A program made the position numbers and the translations under genes. Shown piece after piece: positions 61,735-64,000 of a stretch of DNA of 64,000 nucleotides (its first letter is position 1; each line of letters starts with the position of its first letter). The stretch comes from Ensifer sp. LC11. Lineage in GTDB: Bacteria; Pseudomonadota; Alphaproteobacteria; Rhizobiales; Rhizobiaceae. The stretch is taken from assembly GCF_001695835.1 (NCBI RefSeq), contig NZ_MBSO01000002.1, forward strand, positions 124,001-188,000, in the 5' to 3' direction. A model generated the notes under the pieces. It saw only the letters and a list, made by a program, of their open reading frames with translations, was not told the origin of the DNA and did not search any database.

Positions 61735-63309
61735 ATGAGCACGCCTGGAGCATATATCCGTCTCGCGCGGATCGGCTGGGTTCTCGTGCGCGAAGGTGTC
61801 GTCTCGGCGGTCCCTTCCGAGCATCTGCCGCCGTTTGCCCGCTTCGCCCAGAAGGTTGCAGGCCTCTTGGCGCGCCGCAAGGTGCCCGGTGAAGAGCGCA
61901 GCGACCGGCTGTCACGCGCCGTCGCCCGCCTCGGTCCGTCCTATGTGAAGATCGGGCAGTTCCTGGCGACGCGTCCCGACGTCGTCGGGGCGGAGTTTGC
62001 AGCCGACCTGTCGCTGTTGCAGGACAGCATGGCAACCTTCCCGGAGCGCGAGGCGAGGGCCGCGATTGAAGGGTCGCTCGGCCGGAAGGTTGACGATCTC
62101 TACGCCGAATTCTCCGAGCCGATGGCGGCCGCCTCGATCGCGCAGGTGCACCCGGCGATCGTTATGCGCGACGGCAAGCCGGAAAAGGTCGCCGTCAAGG
62201 TCATTCGCCCGGGCGTTCGCCAGCGCTTCGCTTCCGACATCGAGGCGATGTATCTTGTCAGCCATATGCAGGAGCGCTTCCTGCCCTATACGCGCCGGCT
62301 GAAGCCGGTCGAGGTCACCAAGACGCTGGAACAGACGACCAAGATCGAAATGGATCTTCGGCTGGAGGCGGCCGCCCTTTCCGAACTCGGCGAGAACACC
62401 AAGGACGATTCCGGCTTTCGCGTGCCGAAGGTCGACTGGGAACGGACCGGGCGCGACGTCGTCACCATGGAATGGATCGACGGCGTCAAGATGTCGAATA
62501 TCGAGGGGCTGAAGGCGGCAGGCCACGACCTCAACGAGCTCGGCGAAACGCTGATCCAGTCCTTCCTGCGCCACACGCTGCGCGACGGCTTCTTCCACGC
62601 CGACATGCACCAGGGCAATCTCTTCGTCGATGACGCCGGCCACATCGTCGCCGTCGACATGGGCATCGTCGGCCGTCTCGGCAAGAAGGAGCGGCGGTTC
62701 CTGGCCGAAATCCTGTTCGGCTTCATCACCCGTGACTATCAGCGCGTCGCCGACGTGCATTTCGAGGCGGGCTATGTGCCCTCGCATCACGACGCGGCGA
62801 GCTTTGCCCAGGCGATCCGCGCAATCGGCGAGCCGATCCACGGCCAGCCGGCGGAAACCATTTCGATGGCGAAGCTGCTGACCCTGCTCTTCGAAGTCAC
62901 CGAGCTCTTCGACATGCAGACGCGGCCCGAGCTCGTCATGCTGCAGAAGACCATGGTGGTGGTCGAGGGCGTGGCACGCACGCTCAATCCGCGTTTCAAC
63001 ATGTGGAAGGCCTCCGAGCCGGTCGTCGGCAAATGGATCCGCGACAATCTTGGACCGAAGCGGATCGTTGGCGATCTTCGCGATGGCCTGCATGCCGCGC
63101 TCAGGCTTGCCGAAGCGGCGCCCGAAATCGCCGCGCGCACGGAAAAGTTCTCGAGCGAGATCATGGCCATGAGCGAAAACGGCCTGCGTTTCGATGCAGA
63201 AACGGCCCACGCAATCGGTAAGGCGGAAGCCAGACACACACGCTCCGGCCGCGTCGCGCTCTGGCTGATCGCCGCCACGCTCGTCTATATCGCCTGGCAG
63301 GTGACCTGA
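61735..63309 (+). CDS. ubiB: ubiquinone biosynthesis atypical kinase/ATPase UbiB
   Basis: Membrane-associated ABC1/ADCK-family protein needed for ubiquinone synthesis. The 524-residue protein has the KxGQ motif in SYVKIGQFLATRPD near residue 72, an Ala-rich loop AAASIAQVH, and HADMHQGNLFV in the catalytic loop. A single C-terminal membrane segment (VALWLIAATLVYIAWQV) anchors it. Length is typical. A GC hairpin follows its stop. Confidence 0.96.
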   Translation: MSTPGAYIRLARIGWVLVREGVVSAVPSEHLPPFARFAQKVAGLLARRKVPGEERSDRLSRAVARLGPSYVKIGQFLATRPDVVGAEFAADLSLLQDSMATFPEREARAAIEGSLGRKVDDLYAEFSEPMAAASIAQVHPAIVMRDGKPEKVAVKVIRPGVRQRFASDIEAMYLVSHMQERFLPYTRRLKPVEVTKTLEQTTKIEMDLRLEAAALSELGENTKDDSGFRVPKVDWERTGRDVVTMEWIDGVKMSNIEGLKAAGHDLNELGETLIQSFLRHTLRDGFFHADMHQGNLFVDDAGHIVAVDMGIVGRLGKKERRFLAEILFGFITRDYQRVADVHFEAGYVPSHHDAASFAQAIRAIGEPIHGQPAETISMAKLLTLLFEVTELFDMQTRPELVMLQKTMVVVEGVARTLNPRFNMWKASEPVVGKWIRDNLGPKRIVGDLRDGLHAALRLAEAAPEIAARTEKFSSEIMAMSENGLRFDAETAHAIGKAEARHTRSGRVALWLIAATLVYIAWQVT

Positions 63310-63310
63310 T

Positions 63311-63340
63311 CCCGCCACGCGCCTTAACCGGCGCGGCGGG
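63311..63340 (+). terminator. GC-rich hairpin after ubiB
   Basis: CCCGCC (63311-63316) pairs with GGCGGG (63335-63340) and GCGCC (63319-63323) with GGCGC (63330-63334), with AC bulged and a TTAACC loop. It begins right after the ubiB stop. There is no long T-run, so it is a probable but not certain terminator. Confidence 0.55.
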
Positions 63341-63368
63341 CTTGCCTTTCCACCTTCGCTTGTTATCC
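63341..63368 (+). promoter_or_regulatory. possible promoter for the GNAT leader transcript
   Basis: CTTGCC (63341-63346) and TTATCC (63363-63368) with 16 bases between resemble a rhizobial housekeeping promoter (CTTGAC / CTATAT). Transcription would begin at about 63375, practically on the ATG of the 26-codon frame. The match is partial, so this is tentative. Confidence 0.35.
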
Positions 63369-63375
63369 TCATCGC

Positions 63376-63456
63376 ATGGACAATCGCTCGATTCTCGTGA
63401 TGGCTCTTTGCACGCATACCCCAGGGGTGTGCGGGAGACCTGTTGCGCTGATTTAA
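63376..63456 (+). CDS. candidate 26-residue leader peptide upstream of the GNAT gene
   Basis: ATG at 63376 to TAA at 63454-63456 encodes 26 residues beginning MDNRSILVMALCTH and ending VCGRPVALI. There is no clear ribosome-binding site; if transcription starts near 63375 the frame would be leaderless, as for the S. meliloti trp leader peptide. The frame crosses the hairpin at 63413-63433. The stop lies 16 bases before the next hairpin and 76 bases before the GNAT start, where ribosome position could set mRNA folding. A chance reading frame cannot be excluded. Confidence 0.4.
   Translation: MDNRSILVMALCTHTPGVCGRPVALI
63413..63433 (+). promoter_or_regulatory. leader hairpin A within the 26-codon frame
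   Basis: CGCATACCC (63413-63421) pairs with GGGTGTGCG (63425-63433), nine pairs including one G-T, with a 3-base loop CAG. A ribosome translating the small frame would melt it. Confidence 0.5.
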
Positions 63457-63471
63457 GCGAGCTGTCCCCCA

Positions 63472-63499
63472 CCAACCCTGCCGAGGCGAGCAGGGTTGG
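63472..63499 (+). promoter_or_regulatory. leader hairpin B
   Basis: CCAACCCTGC (63472-63481) pairs perfectly with GCAGGGTTGG (63490-63499) around an 8-base loop. It lies between the small frame and the ribosome-binding-site hairpin. Confidence 0.6.
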
Positions 63500-63504
63500 G
63501 TCCT

Positions 63505-63531
63505 GTTTCCTCGGAGCCAAAGAGAGGAAAC
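63505..63531 (+). promoter_or_regulatory. hairpin C sequestering the GNAT ribosome-binding site
   Basis: GTTTCCTC (63505-63512) pairs perfectly with GAGGAAAC (63524-63531) around an 11-base loop. The 3' arm contains AGGA, the ribosome-binding site of the gene starting at 63533. Translation would need this stem to open, so the leader is probably a translational switch. Confidence 0.6.
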
Positions 63532-63532
63532 A

Positions 63533-64000
63533 ATGACCAAGCCAAATGATCCCTCTGACATCAGCATCCGTGCAGCCCGCGTCATCGATTTCGAAGCGAT
63601 CGCAGCGCTGATGAGCCAGCCGGGCATCCGCTCGGGTACGCTGCGCCAGCCGTTCGCCACCCCGGAACAGACACGCAAGTGGTTGGAGAACCTCTCGGAC
63701 GACAGCACCGTCATCGTTGCCGAGCGCGCCGGTCGGATCCTCGGCATGGCCGGGCTGCACCGCAGCAAAGGGCGGCGCCACCATTCGGCCGCCCTCGGGA
63801 TCAGCGTCGACGACAACCACCGCGGCGAAGGCATCGGTAAGTCATTGCTTACCGCGCTGATCGATGCGGCCGACAACTGGCTCGGCATCAGCCGCATCGA
63901 ACTGACGGTGTTTACCGACAACGGGGCGGCAATCACGCTCTACCGCAAGGTGGGCTTCGAGATGGAGGGCACACACCGGGCCTATGCGCTGCGCAACGGC
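63533..64000 (+). CDS. GNAT-family N-acetyltransferase, 3' end outside window
   Basis: At least 156 residues; the frame is open at the window edge. The GNAT fold is evident: IRAARVIDFEAIAALMSQ at the N-terminus, the acetyl-CoA loop region DDNHRGEGIGKSLLTALIDAA near residues 95-115, and LTVFTDNGAAITLYRKVGFEMEGTHRAYALRNG. It resembles YhhY/amino-acid or antibiotic N-acetyltransferases; the substrate is unknown. ATG at 63533 follows GAGGAAAC, which is buried in hairpin C. From memory, ubiB in S. meliloti is followed by coaBC, so this gene may be an insertion relative to that order. Confidence 0.9.
   Translation, partial: MTKPNDPSDISIRAARVIDFEAIAALMSQPGIRSGTLRQPFATPEQTRKWLENLSDDSTVIVAERAGRILGMAGLHRSKGRRHHSAALGISVDDNHRGEGIGKSLLTALIDAADNWLGISRIELTVFTDNGAAITLYRKVGFEMEGTHRAYALRNG

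Follow-up and report, generated by a model that had tools for sequence, protein, structure and literature searches.

Organization of the locus

The window analyzed here is a stretch of 64,000 nucleotides from Ensifer sp. LC11 (genome G000, 6.2 Mb). Close to its 3' end, a ubiB gene is followed by a promoter-like sequence, a 26-codon open reading frame, two hairpins (B and C), and a gene for an acetyltransferase of the GNAT superfamily (Table 1). The first-pass annotation had read this arrangement as a leader-peptide translational attenuator of the ermC/cat type, and its description of the layout was verified on inspection: the small frame runs from ATG to TAA downstream of ubiB, both hairpins are perfect (with the 8 bp claimed for hairpin C lying inside a stem of 9 bp), and the GAGGA ribosome-binding site of the GNAT gene falls within the 3' arm of hairpin C. 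The –10-like hexamer stops 6 nt short of the leader ATG.

Table 1. Features of the leader–GNAT module, numbered from the first nucleotide of the window.
Feature	Position	Strand	Remarks
ubiB (upstream gene)	ends 63309		Named from a reading of the frame
Promoter-like sequence	63342–63369	+	–35 TTGCCT 63342–63347; –10 TATCCT 63364–63369; N16 spacer
Leader ORF, 26 codons	63376–63456	+	ATG...TAA; MDNRSILVMALCTHTPGVCGRPVALI; probably leaderless
5' end strand, GGACA	63378–63382	+	Forms P1 with post-stop UGUCC 63463–63467; fold and P5:Y covariation
Leader codons 13–15, T-H-T	63412–63420	+	Thr codons 63412–63414 and 63418–63420
Hairpin A, within leader ORF	63413–63433	+	A5 (strand 1) about 63413–63421; A3 (strand 2) about 63422–63433
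Post-stop strand Y, UGUCC	63463–63467	+	Pairs with RNA 5' end; fold, strand swap
Hairpin B (CCAACCCTGC/GCAGGGTTGG)	63472–63499	+	Perfect 10-bp stem; strand 3 63472–63481, loop 63482–63489, strand 4 63490–63499
B loop and 3' arm (CCGAGG-C-GAGCAGG)	63481–63494	+	Alternative partner of 63502–63514 (CCUGUUUCCUCGG)
Hairpin C, 9 bp	63504–63532	+	63504–63512 with 63524–63532; ribosome-binding site buried
Shine-Dalgarno GAGGA of GNAT gene	63524–63528	+	From the sequence
GNAT acetyltransferase, 175 aa	63533–64060	+	ATG at 63533; window holds 63533–64000 (156 aa)

Two separate perfect 8-bp hairpins within such a stretch arose in 3 of 2000 mononucleotide shuffles and in 4 of 399 tiles of the window. The predicted minimum free energy fold of the module RNA (–77.5 kcal/mol; z = –5.0) comprises hairpins A, B, and C together with P1, a helix between the 5' end and the post-stop strand, and none of 200 dinucleotide shuffles was equally stable. 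The Rfam collection yielded no match at the gathering thresholds in the window and none at E values up to 10 between 63300 and 63600, in agreement with the earlier statement that no known riboswitch family is recognizable here. On the minus strand, a 674-codon open frame (61912–63936) lies antisense to ubiB, the leader, and the GNAT gene and probably results from GC-rich codon usage.

Distribution of the module

The GNAT gene and its leader were found together in 16 of 16 genomes searched from the window's genus. Across the family, a covariance model matched 35 of 394 genomes at E ≤ 0.01, and 34 of these matches were found on inspection to precede a GNAT gene, including those in G152 and G322, for which a script reported no GNAT frame longer than 120 codons; the weakest match, in G217, was judged false. 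Nine of 297 genomes in an order-wide sample matched at E ≤ 0.1: five belong to the Rhizobiaceae, the window's family, three belong to another family of the order and carry the same leader–GNAT module, and one match is false. In a class-wide sample of 289 genomes, the single match was to G000 itself, with none outside the order. Each matching genome in the family, order, and class samples has one copy of the leader, at one place.

An exact pattern for hairpin B, searched in a named genome collection, retrieved 109 stretches, all of which were examined. The element is present in 108 of them, with titles naming Rhizobium, Sinorhizobium, Ensifer, Ferirhizobium, Rhizobiaceae, and Rhizobiales; the remaining one, L163 from a Clostridia MAG, matched by chance. 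Carriers include Rhizobium johnstonii 3841 (L113) and Sinorhizobium fredii USDA 205 (L189). A leader frame was found in 105 of the 109, and it is missing, apart from L163, where there is an insertion (L086) or a frame change (L151), or where the stretch begins inside the element (L177). The 105 include L180, in which the first half of the frame stems from a repeat-like insertion. Such an insertion takes the place of the 5' half of the leader in both L086 (Sinorhizobium sp. 8-89) and L180 (Ensifer sp. IC4062), with hairpins B and C and the GNAT gene kept; these loci show the leader lost or altered naturally. Downstream, a GNAT frame is present in 106 of the stretches and is cut at once by the end of the locus in two others (L118 and L167). 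It is shorter than 150 codons in 9 of 105 measured, five of which are truncated by the locus end, while frames of 113 (L114), 98 (L149), and 141 codons (L102 and L132) lie behind leaders and away from the locus end, and the genes in question are possibly altered or broken. The loop of hairpin C houses a palindromic repeat of some 100 nt in L018 and L087 (Ensifer adhaerens SD006), where both arms and the ribosome-binding site are retained. The MDNRS...LCTH type of leader peptide, to which that of the window belongs, occurs in this collection mostly in records called Ensifer.

A search with the GNAT protein in 111 genomes of the family returned 19 carriers at E 1e-20. Six of them give a clear covariance-model match, and four have diverged leaders that were read by eye (L203, L204, and L205, which match the model weakly, and L214, which does not match). 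No leader was recognized in the remaining nine: in L207, L211, L212, and L213 the GNAT gene sits close behind another gene, and nothing resembling a leader was recognized before it in L210 and L215–L218. The module lies downstream of ubiB, wherever the upstream side was read, in the window's genus and in the next, and in Rhizobium-type loci the leader and the GNAT gene occupy an unrelated place, divergent from a gene that reads as exonuclease-like. The leader thus accompanies the GNAT gene at different genomic sites, and the two go together. Both the leader frame and the stem that buries the ribosome-binding site are kept in relatives, so the lack of conservation named by the first-pass annotation as evidence against its proposal did not materialize.

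Coding signature and start of the leader

Of 124 loci tried, 111 were retained; five were missed by the pattern, and the others were dropped for want of a GNAT frame (L040, L118, and L146) or a leader frame (L151), or because the GNAT start lay more than 120 nt from hairpin B (L018, L087, L102, and L132). Among 87 unique leader frames, all begin with ATG, 86 have 24–27 codons, the three stop codons are used 33, 27, and 27 times, and the stop falls 18–25 nt upstream of the core of hairpin B, although the choice of frames by a window for their start and end around hairpin B partly determines their start codon, length, and stop position. Loci without a frame in that window, such as L151, drop out of the 87, and L082 entered from an internal ATG (19 codons), where a 26-codon frame with a GTG start fits better.

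The ratio of nonsynonymous to synonymous change, a crude pairwise measure, is low in frame for the N-terminal part of the peptide: 0.35 in the 26-residue class (against 0.90 and 0.84 in the shifted frames), 0.29 in the 25-residue class (1.21 and 1.15), and 0.54 in the 24-residue class (2.36 and 0.88). The signal is weak in the C-terminal half, where the in-frame ratios of these classes are 0.61, 0.50, and 0.75, compared with 0.50–1.20 for the shifted frames, and another frame is lower (0.50) in the 24-residue class. Judging by its evolution, the leader frame appears to be under purifying selection and translated. In 8 of the 16 species of the genus, an extra C in the loop of hairpin A (window positions 63419–63422; also L004, L005, and L007–L011) shifts the leader frame, so that the peptide ends in a different C-terminal sequence and the stop is reached a few nucleotides later, while the RNA is kept; the leader C-terminus is therefore unlikely to be the sensor. 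The last leader residue is Arg in 61 of 87 frames, and stalling at the stop codon was considered on this ground, but it is not preferred in view of the same frameshift.

A promoter-like sequence is conserved in place just before the leader ATG. Its score in 24 leaders averages 8.1, as against 5.7 for shuffled sequences with the same placing (Wilcoxon p = 3e-5); the –35-like hexamer contains TTGAC in 16 of the 24, and the –10-like hexamer lies 4–8 nt before the ATG. The scores of L077 and L082 are no better than those of their shuffles. This placement predicts an mRNA that is leaderless or nearly so, and it supports the first-pass suggestion of a transcription start near the leader ATG. Many leaders start with AUGAUC, and the region after the stop codon contains GAUCA; the palindromic GAUC could mediate pairing between two transcripts.

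Covariation of two mutually exclusive sets of helices

Pairing was assessed by strand swapping, in which two segments of one leader are compared, by duplex energy, with segments exchanged between leaders. With 24 representatives of less than 80% identity and 42 segment pairs (Bonferroni level.0012), six pairings head the list: B5:B3 (hairpin B; p =.0001), B4:C5 (an alternative pairing; p =.0001), P5:Y (5' end with the post-stop strand; p =.0002), A5:A3X (hairpin A; p =.0006), A3X:B5 (an alternative pairing; p =.0007), and C5:C3 (hairpin C), whose p =.0022 misses the Bonferroni level. The next pair, A3X:B4, follows at.0138, and support for X:Y is weak (.057). B3:C5 also reached.0001 but was set aside, as its segments overlap by 7 nt; the overlaps are 3 nt for A5/A3X and 5 nt for Y/B5. 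These p-values are only indicative because the sequences are related, and for L196, L203, L204, L205, and L214 the anchors were placed manually with reference to hairpin B, a choice that favors B5:B3. The same six pairs remain on top among 16 representatives of less than 72% identity (p of.0049 or lower). With nine representatives of less than 70% identity from an earlier set, four of the six stay below.05 (A3X:B5 at.017), and C5:C3 (.106) and B4:C5 (.108) are not significant.

Compensatory changes are also evident by eye. The B loop CCAAGG of L083 faces CCUUGG in C5, CCGAAG in L042 and L080 is matched by CUUCGG, CGAGG-AGGUAG in L079 by CUUACCU-CCUCG, and A3 GCCGG in L214 by B5 CCGGC; L082 likewise shows such changes in B4:C5. 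Within the main group, the sequences of the B loop and strands are highly conserved, while in L203, L204, and L214 the sequence of hairpin B is replaced and its pairing kept. Hairpins B and C, for which a check for compensatory change had been suggested, both covary across leaders. The pairings imply that the strands can be read as 1:2, 3:4, and 5:6, with the ribosome-binding site hidden, or as 2:3 and 4:5, with the site free, and on this comparative evidence the six covarying pairings are taken to be both states of an erm-like switch. The coding signature, the covarying hairpin over the ribosome-binding site, and the covarying erm-type alternative pairings bear out the attenuator layout first read from the window alone. 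That reading did not include hairpin A, P1, either alternative pairing, or the threonine codons described below, and hairpin B, seen there as an intervening hairpin, is itself half of the switch.

Threonine codons ahead of the switching strand

Thr is specified by 43 of the 101 in-frame codons in the interval 8–20 nt ahead of A3, with at least one in 23 of 24 divergent leaders, whereas in the two other frames ACN accounts for 4 of 111 and 3 of 100 triplets; by comparison, Thr accounts for 4.9% of GNAT residues. This interval was chosen after a first look at 8–19 nt, in which L008, L076, and L077 lack Thr; in the second only L077 does. A3 was anchored by a regular expression, which misplaces it in L079, L083, and L149. 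By codon position before A3, Thr occupies 34 of 72 codons at positions 3–5, 40 of 167 at 6–12, and 3 of 48 at 1–2, falling to 2 of 202 from A3 onward and 6 of 88 farther upstream. Held-out leaders, 23 of 28 being new sequences, repeat the pattern: 26 of the 28 contain Thr, and ACN forms 54 of 115 triplets in frame, compared with 6 of 137 and 5 of 112 in the other two frames. The two Thr-free ones are L172, whose peptide is identical to that of L008, and the repeat-altered L180.

Since a hairpin could hold the ACC of A5 in phase, the Thr signal beside A3 may be partly an RNA-level one. Thr occurs more often, however, at positions 4 and 5 (12 and 14 of 24 leaders) than at position 3 (8 of 24), and we read positions 4 and 5 as mostly outside A5. 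The toeprint lies 16–17 nt from the P-site codon according to PMC5118997, so a ribosome with a Thr codon in its A site would cover A5 and end at about A3.

The same RNA switch could also answer to a ribosome-targeting antibiotic that stalls ribosomes in a Thr context, as happens on erm and cat leaders, with the GNAT enzyme acetylating the drug, although we regard this as rather unlikely. Some ribosome inhibitors favor Ala, Ser, or Thr, and a Thr at the place of arrest would be compatible with these; the strand order with its covariation is erm-like, and the GNAT superfamily includes drug-modifying enzymes. Yet the preference for Thr is strong (43 Thr and 7 Ser among the 101 residues of the interval, with Ala outside the eight commonest), no conserved arrest motif was noticed around Thr, and several leaders carry tandem Thr codons that resemble regulatory codons. 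The anatomy of the element points to threonine codons rather than an antibiotic as the sensed signal.

The acetyltransferase

The 156 residues encoded in the window match Pfam Acetyltransf_1 (6e-20), and the nearest solved structure by sequence is that of PA1377 (2vi7; 3.2e-36). Against NCBIfam, the matches of the same 156 residues to PRK10140 and ArsN1a fall below cut-off, models for streptothricin, aminoglycoside, and phosphinothricin acetyltransferases score far below it, and a PADLOC search gave no match. Enzymes in this part of the GNAT superfamily acetylate amino acids and toxic analogues thereof. We tentatively entertain, at low confidence, a role in inducible detoxification, in which a poison of the threonine pathway would starve the cell of Thr-tRNA, the leader would stall ribosomes, and the enzyme would N-acetylate the poison. 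A threonine analogue or an inhibitor of threonine synthase is suggested as the poison; the aminophosphonate released from rhizocticin is an inhibitor of this kind according to PMC4302243, which suggests a candidate class of substrates.

A model for control of the GNAT gene

We favor, with some reservation, a model in which the module is a cis-acting translational attenuator, probably leaderless, that senses the charging of tRNA-Thr and controls the GNAT gene. Transcription would start at or beside the leader AUG, and by default P1 and hairpins A, B, and C would form, the last hiding the GNAT Shine-Dalgarno sequence (off). A ribosome awaiting charged tRNA-Thr at codons 13–15 would cover A5, block pairing of the 5' end, and leave A3 free to pair with B5; the B loop and 3' arm, once freed, would pair with C5, releasing C3 and with it the Shine-Dalgarno sequence, so that the GNAT protein could be made (on). 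The leader frame, the helices, both alternative helices, and the Thr codons with their placement are supported by comparative sequence; stalling, low charging of tRNA-Thr as its cause, switching of the RNA in cells, and the substrate of the enzyme are inferred.

Simple equilibrium switching was examined and set aside: when the RNA downstream of the ribosome was folded at each codon, nine leaders gave no consistent position-dependent opening. For the window species, opening of the Shine-Dalgarno sequence costs 9.3–11.9 kcal/mol at every ribosome position, and no opening is predicted. Averaged over 26 leaders, opening costs 8.0 kcal/mol in the free RNA; the figure is 7.2 when the 5' end and A5 are hidden, 7.8 when hairpin A is, 8.4 when everything up to the stop is, and 6.3 when B5 is. 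Hiding the 5' end and A5 lowers the cost by at least 3 kcal/mol in 5 of the 26 and raises it by at least 3 in two (L090 and L196), and the window species shows no lowering; hiding B5 lowers it by at least 3 kcal/mol in 11. Co-transcriptional folding may be relevant to opening.

Two further explanations seem improbable to us. If the element were a transcriptional attenuator, hairpin B or C would serve as the terminator, and in Rhizobium-type leaders the strong, GC-rich stem of hairpin B is indeed followed by some U (GCAGGGUUUUCGG); the window species, like several other groups, has no U-run after hairpin B, none is conserved, and hairpin C holds the ribosome-binding site and ends beside the start codon. 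Of similarly small probability is a metabolite riboswitch or a protein-bound leader in which the small frame would be incidental. This would account for the high conservation of the B loop and strands in the main group and for the retention of hairpins B and C and the GNAT gene in L086 and L180 despite replacement of the 5' part of the leader, but it sits poorly with the coding signature, the frame-specific enrichment of Thr, the pairing kept through replaced B sequences in L203, L204, and L214, and the absence of an Rfam match. Direct feeding of leader translation into the GNAT gene by frameshift or stop-codon overlap is hardly credible, for although a frame in the window (63342–63536) runs through to an ATGA overlap, the open frame varies by species, and in 17 of 115 loci every frame is interrupted.

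Should the threonine-sensing model be true, a regulatory RNA widely conserved in nitrogen-fixing and related soil bacteria, found neither in Rfam nor in the literature searched, would couple the supply of threonine-tRNA to a single acetyltransferase instead of to threonine synthesis. The function of an orphan GNAT enzyme would then become directly testable, by threonine starvation and then with threonine-pathway inhibitors as substrates. Its six-strand logic, with the helices of both states covarying, would make it a natural attenuator of unusual clarity.

Relation to known attenuators

In the thrL and trpL attenuators, regulatory codons for one amino acid precede the switching strand. The module shares this mark of tRNA-charging attenuators, its Thr codons being concentrated before the switching strand, but it would act on a ribosome-binding site rather than a terminator, and its target is an acetyltransferase rather than a biosynthetic operon. 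An attenuator of a thr biosynthetic operon was likewise considered and rejected, as the regulated gene encodes a GNAT enzyme and no U-run follows hairpin B or C in the window. In Bacillus subtilis, stalling on the rtpLP leader peptide by uncharged tRNA controls translation of the next gene, rtpA (anti-TRAP). The logic is the same as that proposed here, although the codons (Trp), the gene, and the RNA differ.

The macrolide-inducible attenuators of the ermC type, and those of cat, likewise have a small leader frame, chained alternative pairings, and a last hairpin that buries the ribosome-binding site. Each of these features has its counterpart in the module, namely the coding signature of 87 leader frames, a ribosome-binding site in a conserved hairpin, and an exclusive pairing that would free it. 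The ermC attenuator has four strands and controls an rRNA methylase, whereas here there are six strands and P1 before a GNAT gene, a probable leaderless start, and Thr codons as the likely signal. The ermC model is mentioned in PMC5118997.

A leaderless start, probable for the module, is described for trpL/peTrpL of Sinorhizobium meliloti in PMC10117765. A conserved leader uORF together with a conserved RNA region also precedes Corynebacterium ilvBNC (PMC10272879); unlike the module, it belongs to a biosynthetic operon and to another phylum. No report of this element was among the papers listed in our literature search. The term 'acetyltransferase' does not occur in the main text of the Ribo-seq study PMC10117765, nor do 'acetyltransferase' and 'GNAT' in PMC8632094 and PMC1273637. 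PMC10117765 also describes another Thr/Lys-rich Sinorhizobium leader, SEP5, upstream of an aspartate dehydrogenase gene.
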